Of a DNA stretch of 64,000 nt, positions 46,500-58,449 are shown in pieces; position 1 is the stretch's first letter; every line of letters starts with the position of its first letter. Below the pieces are notes generated by a model that ran no database searches, was not told the origin of the DNA, and worked only from the letters and a program-made list of their open reading frames with translations. Source of the stretch: Cytophagales bacterium (GTDB lineage Bacteria > Bacteroidota > Bacteroidia > Cytophagales > Cyclobacteriaceae); the NCBI GenBank assembly GCA_020402945.1, contig JADBYQ010000013.1:62001-126000 (forward strand). Reading direction: 5' to 3'. The position numbers and the translations under genes are program-made.

Positions 46500-48638
46500 A
46501 TGCATAAAATCTCCATTTTGCTCATCGCAACCGGTTTACTAGCAGGTTGTTCTTCACCCAAAGAAAAAGTTTCACTCATGAAGTATCCACCAACTGAAAA
46601 AATCAACACGATCGACACATTATTTGGGACGCCCGTCAATGATCCCTATCGGTGGTTGGAGAACGATACCGCCAAGGCGACAGGCGATTGGGTCAAAGCT
46701 CAAAACGAAATCACCTTTGGGTTTCTAGATAAGATTCCCTACCGAGCGACAATCAAAAAAAGGTTGGAGGCACTCTATAACTACGAACGACTCAGCGCGC
46801 CTTTTAAAGAAGGTGATTTCTATTACTTCTACAAGAATGACGGACTCCAAAATCAAAGTGCCTTATACCGTAAGAAGGGCGAAGACGGAACACCTGAATT
46901 ATTTTTAGACCCTAATACTTTTTCGAAAGACGGAACCACCTCGATGGCGGGAATATCTTTTTCAAAAGACGGCTCTTTAGCTGCCTACCAAATTTCGGAA
47001 GGCGGTTCTGATTGGAGAAAAGTGATCGTCATAAAGACGACCGATAAAACGGTAGTCGAAGACACCTTGCGGGATGTAAAGTTTAGCGGACTTGCCTGGA
47101 AGGGCAATGAAGGATTTTATTATAGCAGTTACGATAAGCCAAAAGGCAGCGAACTCTCTGCGAAGACACAATATCATAAATTATATTTTCATAAACTGGC
47201 CACCAAACAAAGTACCGATCAGTTGATTTTTGGTGGAGAAAAAACCCCTCGCAGGTATGTGGGAGCAGGGTTAACCGAAGATGAACGTTTTTTAATTGTG
47301 TCTGCTTCCACCAGCACAACTGGAAACGAATTATACGTTCAAGACTTAAAGGATCCTAAAGGAAAATTAGTGACCGTAGTTGGCAATTTTGACAATGATC
47401 ATAACCTGGTAGACAATGATGGTTCGCGCCTAATCATCCAGACGAATCTGAATGCCCCCAACAACAAAATTGTATCGGTTGACTTTGCAAAGCCTGGAAT
47501 AGAAAACTGGAAAGATCTGGTACCCGAAACTGACAATGCAATGCAGGGTGTAGGCACTGCGAACAAAAAAATGTTTGTGAATTATTTGAAAGATGCAAAG
47601 ACATTGATTAAGCAATTTGACTTTGCAGGAAAACTGGAAAGAGAAGTAGAATTACCGGGTATTGGAACAGCTGGAGGGTTTGGGGGTAAAGTCGCAGACA
47701 AACAGATTTACTATACCTTCACTTCGTTTACCTATCCGTCTTCGATTTTCAAATACGATATTGCATCAGGTAAGTCAACACTCTATGAAAAGCCAAAAGT
47801 TGATTTCAACCCTGAGGACTATGAGACCAAGCAAGTATTTTATACCAGCAAAGATGGAACAAAGGTGCCGATGTTTATTGTGCATAAGAAAGGGTTGGAG
47901 TTGAATGGCAAAAATCCAACAATGCTTTATGCTTACGGTGGGTTCGGCATTAGCCTTACGCCTTCTTTCAATACATCTCGTATTGTTTGGTTAGAGAACG
48001 GTGGGGTTTATGCACAGCCCAATTTGCGTGGTGGTGGCGAGTATGGAGAGAAATGGCATCTGGCCGGCACAAAAATGAGTAAGCAGAATGTGTTTGATGA
48101 CTTTATTGCAGCCGGAGAATACTTGATCGCAGAAAAATATACCTCCAATCAATATTTAGCGATTTCAGGTGGATCGAATGGAGGTCTGCTAGTTGGAGCA
48201 ACGATGGCTCAACGCCCTGATTTGATGAAAGTCGCATTACCTGCCGTGGGGGTAATGGATATGTTGCGCTATCATAAATTTACAGCTGGTGCAGGATGGG
48301 CTTATGACTACGGTACTGCTGATGATTCCAAAGAAATGTTTGAGTACTTACAAAAGTATTCACCAGTACACGCTTTAAAGCCGAATACATCTTACCCCGC
48401 TACGATGGTAACAACAGCGGATCACGATGATCGCGTTGTGCCTGCGCACTCGTTCAAGTTTGCGGCAGTATTGCAAGAAAATCATGTCGGTGATAATCCA
48501 GTACTGATCCGCATTGAAACGAAATCAGGGCACGGATCGTCCAATTTATCGAAGGCGATAGAAGGAACAGCTGATCAGTATGCTTTTACCTGGTATAACA
48601 TGGGTGTAATTCCACCACTAGCGAAGAAAGATATGTAA
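46500..48638 (+). CDS. prolyl oligopeptidase (S9A) lipoprotein
   Basis: 712 residues; lipoprotein signal MHKISILLIATGLLAGC. N-terminal YPPTEKINTIDTLFGTPVND and PYRWLENDTAKA open the S9A family; a seven-bladed propeller fills residues about 90-430; the catalytic domain has ISGGSNGGLLVG (Ser), DHDDRVVPAHSFK (Asp) and KSGHGSSNLSKA (His). Cleaves after proline in short peptides, here outside the inner membrane. Complete and normal in length. Confidence 0.94.
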   Translation: MHKISILLIATGLLAGCSSPKEKVSLMKYPPTEKINTIDTLFGTPVNDPYRWLENDTAKATGDWVKAQNEITFGFLDKIPYRATIKKRLEALYNYERLSAPFKEGDFYYFYKNDGLQNQSALYRKKGEDGTPELFLDPNTFSKDGTTSMAGISFSKDGSLAAYQISEGGSDWRKVIVIKTTDKTVVEDTLRDVKFSGLAWKGNEGFYYSSYDKPKGSELSAKTQYHKLYFHKLATKQSTDQLIFGGEKTPRRYVGAGLTEDERFLIVSASTSTTGNELYVQDLKDPKGKLVTVVGNFDNDHNLVDNDGSRLIIQTNLNAPNNKIVSVDFAKPGIENWKDLVPETDNAMQGVGTANKKMFVNYLKDAKTLIKQFDFAGKLEREVELPGIGTAGGFGGKVADKQIYYTFTSFTYPSSIFKYDIASGKSTLYEKPKVDFNPEDYETKQVFYTSKDGTKVPMFIVHKKGLELNGKNPTMLYAYGGFGISLTPSFNTSRIVWLENGGVYAQPNLRGGGEYGEKWHLAGTKMSKQNVFDDFIAAGEYLIAEKYTSNQYLAISGGSNGGLLVGATMAQRPDLMKVALPAVGVMDMLRYHKFTAGAGWAYDYGTADDSKEMFEYLQKYSPVHALKPNTSYPATMVTTADHDDRVVPAHSFKFAAVLQENHVGDNPVLIRIETKSGHGSSNLSKAIEGTADQYAFTWYNMGVIPPLAKKDM

Positions 48639-53762: not shown

Positions 53763-55181
53763 TTATTCAATCGCCCGGATGATGCGTCCATAGTAAGTCT
53801 CTGATTCAACCCGCTTGGCCGCTGTGCGGTAAGCCTCCTTCAACGAAGCATCGTTCATCAATTTTATTTTGTAGGCAGCATCTGTTAACACTTCGGTGAT
53901 ATAGTGATCCGAGTCAATTTTTGAAGTGGCTTGCAATACCGATAAAATATTTTGTTTTGTTAAGTTCGGCCGCTCCAAGGCAGTTTGCAAGAACACCGAC
54001 ATATAATGGTCACTGCCATTGCCACTTACCGCCTCCGTCAACTGTTGGAATGATTCGTTTGATAGGGTTTGACGTTTTACGATTTCGTTGGCGACATTGG
54101 TGATATAGTGGCCCGACTCGATGGAAGAGATCATCGGGATCAAGTTGTTCAATGCTTCTGCTGAAAGATTTTTTTGTAGAAGGTTCGTGAGCACTTCTGC
54201 TTTGTAGTGGTCGCTCTCAATGTCTTGGATGGATTCAATAGCCTTTTGATAGGAAGCAGCAGAAAGCCCCCGCATAGCCAATGCTTTGTTAAGCACCACA
54301 CTGCGATAATGATCGGAGTCGATGGTTTTGGTGGTGTTGATCATCTCACCGACTACGCCATCTGTTAGATTCGTTTGCCTTAACAGCGAAGTCATTACTT
54401 CTGTTTTGTAATGGTCGGAGTCCATTGTGCCGGTAGTCTGCATAATGATCCGGACACTTTCCAGGGACACAGGTCTACTGTGCAATGCCTCCTTGATCAC
54501 TTCCGTTTTGTAATGGTCTGAGTCCATTCTGCGAGTAGCGGCAAACAATGCTTCAGTGGCTTCTTTGTTCTGCATGAATTTCTCCACGTTGTTTTTTAAA
54601 AACTCCGCCATGTAGTGATCTGAATCTATCGTGCCGGATATGCCATTGGCGATCATTCCATATTCTGCTACCGGCACATTTTGTTTCATTAGCAGCGAAG
54701 CATAGTGTTCCTTCACATGATCGCTTTCTAAATTTCTGATTTCGTTAACCACAGAAGTGGCGCCTCCTTGTTTGTAAAATCGATTCACGCGACTCTCGGC
54801 ACCAATGGTAGTGGTGCGCACCAACTCCAGCATAATTTCTGAGAGCCATTTGCGCCCCTCCGGTTCAAAAGCCACTTTAGAACGGCCCTCGTAGTACTCA
54901 CGCTTCAGGCCATTGCCTTCGGGCGTAATCACAATGGAGCGCCTGCTGCCGAAGACCGTTTTGGTGATCTCCAGGTATCCATCGGGCGACATGCTTTTAA
55001 TGTCTTTGTCATTGTCGGATATTTCAATCTTGCCACGCATCTCCACGTTGAAACTGGATAACCCGTTGGAATGAAAGAAGGTTGTTTTGCGATCGGTGCG
55101 GCTGGAAGAGTACACCACAACTTGCCCCCAGGAGATCGAGTTTAAAAGAATGGCGATGATAAAAATTGAGATCCTTTTCAT
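53763..55181 (-). CDS. secreted protein with ten 34-residue SDHY repeats
   Basis: 472 residues; signal peptide MKRISIFIIAILLNSISWGQ. Residues 20-140 form an N-terminal domain (YEGRSKVAFEPEGRKWLSE). From about residue 150 a repeat runs to the end, consensus I-[DE]-S-D-H-Y-[KR]-x-E-V-L-x3-L, with the S at residues 153, 187, 221, 255, 289, 323, 356, 390, 424 and 460: spacing 34, with single exceptions of 33 and 36. The pattern suggests two helices per unit (HEAT-like solenoid) with a conserved D-H-Y on one face. The repeat is visible in DNA as a 102-base period. It precedes the LytS/LytTR cassette on the same strand (110-base gap). Confidence 0.8.
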   Translation of the reverse strand: MKRISIFIIAILLNSISWGQVVVYSSSRTDRKTTFFHSNGLSSFNVEMRGKIEISDNDKDIKSMSPDGYLEITKTVFGSRRSIVITPEGNGLKREYYEGRSKVAFEPEGRKWLSEIMLELVRTTTIGAESRVNRFYKQGGATSVVNEIRNLESDHVKEHYASLLMKQNVPVAEYGMIANGISGTIDSDHYMAEFLKNNVEKFMQNKEATEALFAATRRMDSDHYKTEVIKEALHSRPVSLESVRIIMQTTGTMDSDHYKTEVMTSLLRQTNLTDGVVGEMINTTKTIDSDHYRSVVLNKALAMRGLSAASYQKAIESIQDIESDHYKAEVLTNLLQKNLSAEALNNLIPMISSIESGHYITNVANEIVKRQTLSNESFQQLTEAVSGNGSDHYMSVFLQTALERPNLTKQNILSVLQATSKIDSDHYITEVLTDAAYKIKLMNDASLKEAYRTAAKRVESETYYGRIIRAIE

Positions 55182-55536: not shown

Positions 55537-55563
55537 AACAGCCGCAACTCTATTGCGGCTGTT
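55537..55563. repeat. AACAGCCGCAA/TTGCGGCTGTT perfect hairpin
   Basis: 11-base perfect stem (55537-55547 with 55553-55563) and a five-base CTCTA loop. No U-run, so not a terminator. Confidence 0.55.
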
Positions 55564-55577
55564 CCCTGTATTTGGTG

Positions 55578-55603
55578 TATAGTCGCAACTAGTTGCGGCT
55601 ATA
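55578..55603. repeat. 26-base near-perfect palindrome
   Basis: TATAGTCGCAACT (55578-55590) followed directly by AGTTGCGGCTATA (55591-55603); one G:T mismatch. Shares GCCGCAA/TTGCGGC with the hairpin 15 bases upstream, so the two are probably related elements. Confidence 0.5.
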
Positions 55604-56021
55604 CTAATGTTGGTAGCAATAGGGCCTGGACAAATTTGTGTTCCAAAAAAGCGGACGACATTTTACTAAAAAGGATTCTCCACTGGGACAAACGAATGGC
55701 TTCTCAAACAACTTCGACTTTTGAAAAAACTAAAACTTGGGACAGACTAAAAAATAATGCAGCCGACCTAGTATTTTTAGGAAGATTCTCCTCCGAATTC
55801 CCTCGCAATTTGGCACATGCCATAGCCGCTTAACTCCACCGCGACACCAAAGCTATGGCAAGAGCCAAATCCTCACGACCCAAGGGTCAAGATAAGACGT
55901 TGCGAACAAGAGATAATTTTCTGTATTTTAACAGATGAATATTTTTTGCTGTGGATTTAGCTGACCTTTTCAAGGACTGACACAAAAACAAGGCATTTTA
56001 GCGTAAAAATCAACTAGGACT

Positions 56022-56825
56022 ATGACTGGCGACTGTAAAATATTAAAAGACTTACCAAGTGGTGGACAAAAAAATGTTCAGTTGGCGGAACATCCTTCTG
56101 CAGGTCTTGTGGTTATTAAACGAGGGGCAATTAAGAGTTTTACATCCTTAGAAAGGATAAAAAGAGAGGTTGAACTTCTATCTGAACTAAACTCAAATTT
56201 CTATCCACATCAACACCATTTCAACATTGATGTGAAGACGAAGGAATTTGAAATAGTTGAAGACTACATTGAAGGAAAAACATTGCGTGACTGCATGACG
56301 GACTTCAAAGACCCCAAAACTATTTTCAGTTTACTTCATTCACTTGTGGAGGGTCTTTCAATTATTTGGGAAAGGAACATTGTTCATCGTGATTTAAAGC
56401 CAGAGAATATAATTATAAGACCGACAGGTGTACCCTGTATCATCGATTTGGGCATAGCTCGGTTTCTTGACCTTGAATCACTGACTAAAACAATTTCACC
56501 TATTGGCCCTTGCACACCTATTTATGCTTCACCCGAGCAATTGACAAATAACAAAAATTTGATTGACCCTAGGACAGATTTTTTTGAACTGGGTATAATT
56601 GCGCTCGAATTGTTTCTCGGTGTCCATCCTTATGACCCGAATTATGTAGGGAATCATTTCTCTATCGTAGAGAATATTATGCAAAACATCTACATCTTAG
56701 AAACGATTAACGTAAAACGTAACGATTCAATTGCAGCTTTCGCTGAGAAGACCTTACAAACACAACCATATCAAAGATTTAGAAATCACGAGATGTTAAA
56801 CAATTTCATAGCCAAACAGCTTTAA
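56022..56825 (+). CDS. Hanks-type Ser/Thr protein kinase, cytoplasmic
   Basis: 267 residues, the whole protein being a kinase domain: glycine-loop-like DLPSGGQKNVQ, VVIKRG (K33), alpha-C glutamate in KREVELLSEL (E49), HRDLKPEN (D124, K126, N129), DLG in place of DFG (D142), SPEQ for APE (170-173), and TDFFELGIIALEL (D186). Catalytic residues are all present, so it should be active. No PASTA or membrane segment, unlike PknB. First gene of a compact operon: two bases separate it from the next gene. Three 60-base samples from this operon have only 18-20 G+C each by hand count (30-33%), lower than the housekeeping genes I compared. Confidence 0.88.
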   Translation: MTGDCKILKDLPSGGQKNVQLAEHPSAGLVVIKRGAIKSFTSLERIKREVELLSELNSNFYPHQHHFNIDVKTKEFEIVEDYIEGKTLRDCMTDFKDPKTIFSLLHSLVEGLSIIWERNIVHRDLKPENIIIRPTGVPCIIDLGIARFLDLESLTKTISPIGPCTPIYASPEQLTNNKNLIDPRTDFFELGIIALELFLGVHPYDPNYVGNHFSIVENIMQNIYILETINVKRNDSIAAFAEKTLQTQPYQRFRNHEMLNNFIAKQL

Positions 56826-56827
56826 TT

Positions 56828-57991
56828 ATGAAGGTATATCACCAAACAGGATTTAGAGATAATTGGAATAGGGAATGTTATTTAAATGGCATTGGCGATG
56901 GCTTAATCTATTCACCAATTAACATAGATGCTGACAAATTATTAGCTCTCGACCCTGCATTGAAAATAGGCGGATTCCTTGACCCTCAACTTTATTTACT
57001 CAATGAAGCTAAAGGAACTCTTCACACCTACCCATACTTTCCCGGAAACATCAAACCTGACTTTTCAACTCCAGATTTAGATAACAGCCATATACAAATG
57101 GCCAAGCTTTGTGTGGATTACCAATTGAAGAACGATTTTAGTTATTTGGTGATTCCAACGAGATATTATACTGATAATCCAACCACTTACTTCGTTCAAA
57201 GCACCGACTATTTTGTTACTCCGTTTTGTGATTATGTTAGGACTAATGGCATTAAGAAAAAAATATTGCTATCCGTAATAGTTAAGTCAATTATGCTTGG
57301 TGATGAAGAAAAGCGCAATGAGGTTTTGAACTGGATAACTGGACATCAACAGATTAGCGGAGTCTATCTAATTTTTGAGGACAATTTCAACTCAAAGCAA
57401 ATAAAGGACTTTGAATACTTATTAAATGCTTTGAGATTTATTCGCATTCTAAAATCGAACCAAATGGAAGTTCATTTAGGGTATACTAGCACGGAAGGTA
57501 TTCTCTATAGCATAGCTATGCCCGATTCAGTGACAATTGGGTCTTATGAAAATCTCAGGTCATTTGGAATTAAACGCTTTCAAGACTTAGAAAATGGGCC
57601 TATGAGAGCTCCGAGAGCCAGACTATATAGTTCCAAATTATTACAATGGCTTGATTATCAATATGTGGAAGCCATGCGCAGCTTAATTCCTAATTACGAG
57701 GATTTCTTTGACGAATCTGAGTTTCGTCCACTAATGTTTAAGCCTGAGTACAATTGGCAGTTTCAAAAACCTGAACCTTATAAGCATTATTTTTATGTGT
57801 TTGACAGGCAAGTGAAAGCCTTACCTAATGGTCAGCCTGACAGAATAGAAAGTTTAAAAGGAAGCATTCGAAATGCTGTGAATTTGTTTAGAATTATAGA
57901 AAATGAAGTACTTTTGGATGATGACAGTAACGGTTCACATTTGCCCACGTGGTTTAATGTTATAAATGCTTTCCAAAAGGAAATAGTTTGA
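56828..57991 (+). CDS. unrecognised protein of a kinase/nuclease operon
   Basis: 387 residues, no signal peptide or membrane helix. Landmarks: YHQTGFRDNWNRECYLNGIGDGLIYSP at the N-terminus, PALKIGGFLDPQLYLLNE, FEDNFNSKQIKDFEYLLNAL, VTIGSYENLRSFGIKRFQDL and APRARLYSSKLLQWLD. Alternating strands and helices would suit a TIM-like barrel, but I cannot name the family. Placed between a Ser/Thr kinase (two bases upstream) and a PD-(D/E)xK-like gene (five bases downstream), so it acts with them. It could be the core effector or the sensor of a three-protein system. Confidence 0.7.
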   Translation: MKVYHQTGFRDNWNRECYLNGIGDGLIYSPINIDADKLLALDPALKIGGFLDPQLYLLNEAKGTLHTYPYFPGNIKPDFSTPDLDNSHIQMAKLCVDYQLKNDFSYLVIPTRYYTDNPTTYFVQSTDYFVTPFCDYVRTNGIKKKILLSVIVKSIMLGDEEKRNEVLNWITGHQQISGVYLIFEDNFNSKQIKDFEYLLNALRFIRILKSNQMEVHLGYTSTEGILYSIAMPDSVTIGSYENLRSFGIKRFQDLENGPMRAPRARLYSSKLLQWLDYQYVEAMRSLIPNYEDFFDESEFRPLMFKPEYNWQFQKPEPYKHYFYVFDRQVKALPNGQPDRIESLKGSIRNAVNLFRIIENEVLLDDDSNGSHLPTWFNVINAFQKEIV

Positions 57992-57996
57992 TAGCC

Positions 57997-58449
57997 ATGT
58001 TTGCTACAGAACAAGAGATGTCCAAAATGTTCGAGAAATTCCTGAAATCCAATTTCGGAAATACTTATATCAAAGAATGCCAGGGACTATTTGGAATTCC
58101 TGACTTTGTATTCTATTCAAAAGATAAAGAAGACGTTTCTGTAATTTCATTTGAATTGAAATTAAAAAACTGGAAACGCGCGGCTATGCAAGCATTTAGG
58201 TATAAAAGTTTTTCAAATATTTCTTACGTAGTCTTGTCACCTCAAAGTGCCGGTGCCGCCTTATGCAATATGGAGTTGTTCGAAAAATATAATATTGGAC
58301 TGGCTACGTTTGGTAGAAATTATGAATTCGAGATTCTATTTAAACCAAACGCAGTAAAACCTTACTCAGAAAATCTAAGTCAAAAGCTTGTTTCAAGTAT
58401 TGCCAAGAGTCGAAAGAAATCAAGAAATTTTGAAATGCTGGTTAGATAA
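57997..58449 (+). CDS. PD-(D/E)xK superfamily nuclease-like protein
   Basis: 150 residues from ATG 57997; a TTG at 57988 overlapping the previous stop is an alternative. GIPDFVFYS (D36) and ISFELKLKNWKRA (E53, K55) give the D-E-x-K catalytic set, followed by QAFRY (Q65) on the next helix, as in restriction-endonuclease-like folds. The remaining sequence (SYVVLSPQSAGAALCNMELFEKYNIGLATF) is also typical of small single-domain members. It likely cuts DNA or binds it. Third gene of the kinase operon. Confidence 0.78.
   Translation: MFATEQEMSKMFEKFLKSNFGNTYIKECQGLFGIPDFVFYSKDKEDVSVISFELKLKNWKRAAMQAFRYKSFSNISYVVLSPQSAGAALCNMELFEKYNIGLATFGRNYEFEILFKPNAVKPYSENLSQKLVSSIAKSRKKSRNFEMLVR

Follow-up and report, generated by a model that had tools for sequence, protein, structure and literature searches.

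A compact three-gene operon at positions 56022-58449 of the window (the whole 64,000-nucleotide stretch of contig JADBYQ010000013.1, from a Cytophagales bacterium, analyzed here) encodes a Ser/Thr kinase (K), a middle protein (M) and a nuclease-like protein (N). We put the probability that K-M-N is a small mobile anti-invader module, most likely an anti-phage one, at roughly 0.5. The genes, taken from the list of open reading frames (ORFs), are the following (M′ will denote a distant relative of M):

56022-56825, + strand: K, Ser/Thr kinase, 267 amino acids (aa)
56828-57991, + strand: M, predicted triosephosphate isomerase (TIM) barrel protein, 387 aa
57997-58449, + strand: N, PD-(D/E)xK nuclease-like protein, 150 aa from ATG (an alternative TTG start at 57988 gives 153 aa)

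All three ORFs are on the + strand, with 2 nt between K and M and 5 nt between M and N, and these coordinates bear out the compact operon described in an earlier analysis based on the letters alone (the sequence-only reading). The motifs it named (K33, HRDLKPEN and D142 in K; PD36 and E53-x-K55 in N) are likewise present.

An alignment of M alone (A1, built from the window, G139 and Natribaculum sequences) was run against 84,980 species genomes, and every row returned was kept, which gave 24 loci (L002 and L003 duplicate L024 and L025 and were not recounted). Because M was the only query, co-occurrence of the three genes was not built into the search. N lies beside M in 24/24 loci and K in 22/24, the contigs of the remaining two, L017 and L023, starting at most 25 and about 226 bases before M, respectively. 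Pairwise distances agree among the three proteins (r = 0.97 for K-M, 0.97 for K-N and 0.93 for M-N; n = 23, 0/2000 permutations as high), with values of 0.76, 0.94 and 0.70 for the 14 closest rows, and the single-gene trees of K, M and N have many open forks. Together these results show that K, M and N are inherited together, and the catalytic residues of K and N are conserved in almost every row. Neither of the two outcomes named beforehand as counting against a three-gene system appeared, since the genes recur together elsewhere and neither Pfam nor NCBIfam gives M a match to a metabolic enzyme family.

Hosts were found in several Bacteroidota orders, Balneolota, Chlorobiota, Ignavibacteriota and Smithella (Thermodesulfobacteriota), and the archaeal hosts comprise two haloarchaea and one metagenome-assembled genome (MAG) of Aenigmatarchaeota. 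Three layouts were distinguished, and a phosphatase is present in 8/24 loci (PP2C in six, calcineurin-type in two):

Layout I: K-M-N on one strand, with a short N; window, L004-L016, L018 and L019, and L017 as far as seen
Layout II: K-M convergent with N and a PP2C phosphatase; L020-L024 and L027
Layout III: N-K-M, then a calcineurin-type phosphatase; L025 and L026

Within 395 genomes of the phylum, M was detected in two by sequence and in three by profile search, and N in six by profile search. M of G255 came to light only in the profile search, which also gave four more N-only matches (G255, G143, G172 and G389). The region read in G255 has K-M with a convergent N; G143 (L092) has N-K-M, its M being recognized by eye only, with no hidden Markov model match; G172 carries N with an M′ and a PIN gene and no kinase; and G389 has only N.

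K is a soluble Hanks-type Ser/Thr kinase (Pfam Pkinase 4.5e-28, 98.8 bits, cut-off 31.7) in which no second domain was found. H122, R123, D124, K126, N129 and D142, which include the HRD motif, the catalytic Asp and the metal-binding Asp, are kept in 23/23 rows, and K33 in 19/23, with R, P, P and N in the other four, where misalignment is possible. The Pkinase match and these residues agree with the earlier description of an apparently active kinase having no membrane part. The comparison with PglW of bacteriophage exclusion (BREX) systems, in contrast, shows no close relationship (NCBIfam PglW 16.3 bits against a cut-off of 990), no family named Stk2 is among the best 25 of the 36 PADLOC families that match K, and the score against MAD6 of the MADS system (74.7 bits, NCBIfam cut-off 460) places K outside that family. 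The closest PADLOC kinase model is PD-T4-6 (3.3e-33). PD-T4-6 is a one-gene system consisting of a stand-alone kinase, whereas K sits with M and N in 22/22 loci whose contig reaches K.

N is predicted to adopt a restriction-endonuclease fold (predicted local distance difference test score 89.9), and E27, D36, E53, K55 and Q65 are kept in 25/25 rows. The modeled fold and the conserved D...ExK residues place N in the PD-(D/E)xK superfamily and uphold its earlier description as a small nuclease-like protein. The N proteins of layouts II and III carry, between the D and ExK strands, an insert that appears winged-helix-like on weak profile matches (Pfam HTH_24 0.03 in L002, HTH_IclR 0.0044 in L090, and PADLOC models bearing a helix-turn-helix). 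N is distantly related to the sce7726 nucleases, HHalign giving 92% when three distant members are included and 54% when they are not. Membership of that family (NF033832, > 70 bits) was rejected, as N of the window gave no match at E 1 and N of G139 reached 20.1 bits, and sce7725 was rejected as a match for M (HHalign 0.4%). The sce7726/sce7725 pairs that we looked at differ from the present operon in having no kinase; those in L093-L098 and others are usually accompanied by a small Cys-rich third gene, and in L093 the pair has an HsdM-like gene nearby.

M is predicted to consist of a TIM barrel and a helical C-terminal part, and its model comes nearest to tRNA-guanine transglycosylase (TGT), so that by predicted fold it would belong to the TGT superfamily. 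The sequence-only reading had called it a 387-residue protein of no family that it recognized. This stands insofar as Pfam, NCBIfam, PADLOC-DB 2023 and PHROGs contain no family model for M, but the fold is not without precedent, the model being TGT-like. Structure matches in BFVD include TGT/queuine transferases at rank 4 (E 4.4e-3), rank 6 (E 1.2e-2) and rank 27. In strand 8, where 19/20 fetched TGTs carry the nucleophile motif FDCV.PTR, M has G-(S/T/H)-Y-(E/Q)-N-L-R, with no Asp among residues 238-244 in 24/24 rows (the strand correspondence is our own reading). The CxCxxC zinc site is likewise missing, the Cys motif occurring in 0/24 M rows, yet only 8/20 fetched TGTs have it, which makes this a weak test. 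Replacement of the nucleophile motif by one free of Asp makes ordinary base exchange by M doubtful. Polar residues conserved in M (H5, D52, Q54, Y56, E184, Y219 and those of GSYENLR) are grouped at the ends of predicted strands, which suggests that a binding or active site has been kept.

The distribution of the operon is patchy and its contexts differ between near relatives. M is absent from the same-genus genome G146 by both sequence and profile search. Between the window and L004, M is 90% identical and UvrC only 80%, and the two copies lie in different contexts. The M tree joins L004 to the window (100/98) and to L005 (95/87), within a supported set of six that holds these three and excludes L010, L014 and L015; the window copy, which is outside any restriction locus seen, is thus nearest to a copy embedded in one. 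No clean empty site was obtained, the operon's flanking genes being far apart in G146 and G414. Phage and viral collections yielded no M relatives, and the plasmid search yielded one, from Natribaculum. The operon has a G+C content of 35.7%. The 616 sliding segments of 2428 bases average 42.2% (standard deviation 1.5), the lowest value for the 567 that lie clear of the operon being 39.4%, and the operon is thus richer in A+T than any other stretch of equal length in the window. The A+T-richness noted earlier is thereby confirmed, as are the G+C counts quoted for it except that at 48061-48120, which is 26/60, not 27/60.

Proximity to known defense genes, proposed as a check, was seen in some loci but only in a minority, 5/24 lying within or directly beside a type I restriction operon. 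In L004, L010 and L014 the triad lies between hsdR, upstream, and hsdS, with hsdM also downstream; in L015 the end of hsdR is upstream of the triad, and in L017 hsdS and hsdM are downstream. Elsewhere, a TIR/SIR2 protein is encoded near the triad in L009, L021 has an HNH restriction-like gene immediately upstream, and an Eco57I/MmeI-type methylase and a type I methyltransferase are found in L003 and L026, respectively; the remaining loci have no obvious defense neighbor by eye. The neighbor scans covered 10 ORFs with PADLOC and 10, mostly the same, with Pfam, picked by eye from more than 200 listed; prophage, integrase, SUF and ArdC-like labels were read by eye from the listings.

Several results weigh against an anti-invader module with a TGT-fold protein at its core. 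The association with defense genes is a minority one and, as the ORFs were picked by eye with no matched control, amounts to an association and not to an enrichment, and no recognized defense gene lies directly beside the window copy. The hsd genes compared with those of L004 (HsdR 55-79%, HsdM 79-89% and HsdS only 29-35% identical) belong to one related family, so the five restriction loci are not five independent events. Correlated distances among K, M and N can also arise from shared species history. In L090 a distant M relative occurs with N and a PIN protein and no kinase, which means that not every member of the wider family has K. Lastly, the link between M and TGT is one of predicted fold only. 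HHalign gives a probability of 0.1% and Pfam no TGT match; DpdA and TGT, known relatives, also fail this comparison (0.7%), which makes it a weak one. For seven stretches of M compared with TGT, real scores fell within or below those of 30 column shuffles each; the Foldseek top 50 for M are mixed TIM barrels with no TGT; HHalign found no sequence link between M and DpdA; and a PDB sequence search with the M profile gave a single chance-level row (0.23) and no TGT.

A TGT-like fold beside a restriction-like nuclease could also indicate a base-exchange restriction-modification system akin to Dpd, in which M would swap guanine in host DNA for 7-deazaguanine, N would cut DNA lacking it and K would regulate. 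DpdA, a TGT homologue that marks DNA (PMC12839542), provides the model. However, full-length QueC (at least 236 bits) is present in only 6/25 host genomes, many of the 25 being incomplete MAGs, and is not in the window's own, which is 99.91% complete by its label and has a 24-bit partial match only; 20/25 pass the QueC family cut-off, the other 14 through short matches of at most 120 of 210 positions. Host synthesis of 7-deazaguanine was thus not found as Dpd would need it, and dependence on home-made deazaguanine is unlikely. Having neither full-length QueC nor the strand-8 Asp to support it, we dropped this as our principal explanation and judge it very unlikely. The scarcity of QueC points the other way for a type IV-like, modification-dependent system, in which M would sense deazaguanine or another altered phage base and license N through K, as the self DNA of most hosts would be free of deazaguanine. 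The TGT-like pocket predicted for M and the precedent of GrwAB, which senses phage DNA containing 7-deazaguanine (PMC12137116), are consistent with such a system. GrwAB is, however, built on DUF262 domains and not on a TGT fold, and the ligand of M is putative; we consider this version rather unlikely.

The small, co-inherited operon might instead be a toxin-antitoxin or stress switch, its nuclease restrained by M and K, that stabilizes mobile elements with no specific anti-phage role. M′ proteins occur beside RES-Xre modules on actinobacterial plasmids and, in L090, beside a PIN toxin-family gene, as such a role might lead one to expect, but placement inside hsd operons does not fit it well, and three active-looking enzymes plus a phosphatase are elaborate for a stabilizing pair, which leaves this explanation fairly improbable. 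An ordinary signaling or DNA-repair operon unrelated to defense is still harder to reconcile with the patchy distribution, low G+C, differing contexts in near relatives and restriction and mobile-element neighbors, and we regard it as quite unlikely.

With base exchange doubtful and home-made deazaguanine unlikely, we propose for the anti-invader module that M is the sensor, K the relay, N the effector and the phosphatase the reset. The TGT-fold barrel of M would be the recognition part, its conserved pocket binding an infection-signaling nucleic acid or base, such as tRNA or DNA in which guanine is altered. Binding would cause K to phosphorylate N or M, and phosphorylation would free N to cleave the invader's DNA or, in abortive infection, that of the cell itself. 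A PP2C or calcineurin-type phosphatase, where present, would reset the switch. A module lodged in an hsd operon may serve as back-up to the restriction system, in the way that PrrC serves EcoprrI; the window copy would be a free-standing version. Beyond conservation and fold, the mechanism is one that we infer throughout. The earlier suggestion of a defense or nucleic-acid-damage-sensing system gains support to this extent, as something that we infer from co-occurrence, fold and context. That the module embodies a new immune principle, found in bacteria and archaea and repeatedly, as a second line, in type I restriction operons, in which a descendant of a tRNA/DNA base-exchange enzyme acts as receptor and reversible Ser/Thr phosphorylation, by the kinase and in some lineages also a phosphatase, controls a restriction-type nuclease, is possible, and we advance it only tentatively.

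The nearest working analogues of the proposed scheme would be Cap10 and GrwAB, with PrrC for location. Cap10 of the Type IV cyclic-oligonucleotide-based antiphage signaling system is a TGT-family protein and a near analogue of the role proposed for M (PMC11996544); it binds the CD-NTase N-terminus, with the N-terminal glycine as acceptor (PMC13279940). Here, in contrast, Gly at position 2 occurs in no K or M row and among N rows only in L026, and most hosts have no full-length QueC. The Dpd system (DpdA) and BREX-related capture systems with TGT resemble the operon in having a TGT-type protein in a nuclease-containing defense setting (PMC12839542) and differ in that no DpdB or DpdC counterpart was seen here, the kinase has no match there and M has no sequence match to phage DpdA. 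PrrC, the guardian embedded in the EcoprrI restriction locus, and RloC, its free-standing relative, offer a parallel in which effector genes are lodged in a type I restriction locus and free-standing copies occur elsewhere (PMC12707154); of the present loci 5/24 are restriction-embedded. The proteins differ, however, PrrC being an anticodon nuclease and N having a predicted DNA-nuclease-type fold. The operon was not found described in the open-access literature searched, with subscription journals, bioRxiv at large and DefenseFinder outside that scope, and the closest accounts in print deal with TGT in Dpd and BREX-related systems or with PP2C-kinase-vWA sets. Thus the kind, a multi-gene module with a kinase and a nuclease, is known, whereas the core protein and the combination are new within the databases and literature covered. 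If our interpretation is right, this would be a new defense module in bacteria and archaea around a family that the four databases do not model, and it would unite two separate threads, TGT-like proteins in immunity (Dpd, Cap10) and kinases in phage defense. Its small size, well-defined catalytic residues and variety of natural layouts make the module readily testable.

The features flanking the operon are as follows:

53763-55181, - strand: 472-aa protein, no Pfam match above cut-off
55537-55870, unstranded: inverted repeats between this flanking gene and the operon, with arms 55537-55547/55553-55563, 55577-55591/55590-55604 and 55808-55826/55852-55870

Inverted repeats are thus present where a palindrome cluster had been noted (five pairs listed), but they are few and modest and have no chance control; they adjoin the operon by position only. 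The earlier remark that there are no housekeeping partners applies to the operon itself, its flanks being the 472-aa protein and a luciferase-like monooxygenase. The 472-aa protein has SDHY units repeated about 36-40 residues apart, and relatives 53% identical to it are found in G146 and G414.

M-like hypothetical proteins lie beside RES NAD+ phosphorylase and Xre/MbcA/ParS antitoxin genes (L109-L112; Rhodococcus, Mycolicibacterium and Gordonia plasmids), with only the antitoxin annotated nearby in L109, and the wider M-like family is also found at L090:3028-4227; a TGT-like third partner of RES-Xre modules would be unexpected. In two Flavobacterium species (L012 and L013) the triad lies, by eye, beside SUF iron-sulfur genes, possibly a shared insertion site. 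In Parabacteroides gordonii (L016:310-6955) it follows phage structural/lysis-like genes, with a recombinase-like gene on the opposite side, and may be prophage cargo. Downstream of the triad in L006 (9936-16916) we noted, again by eye, an 855-aa Hsp70-like protein and a second kinase-like protein of 599 aa.
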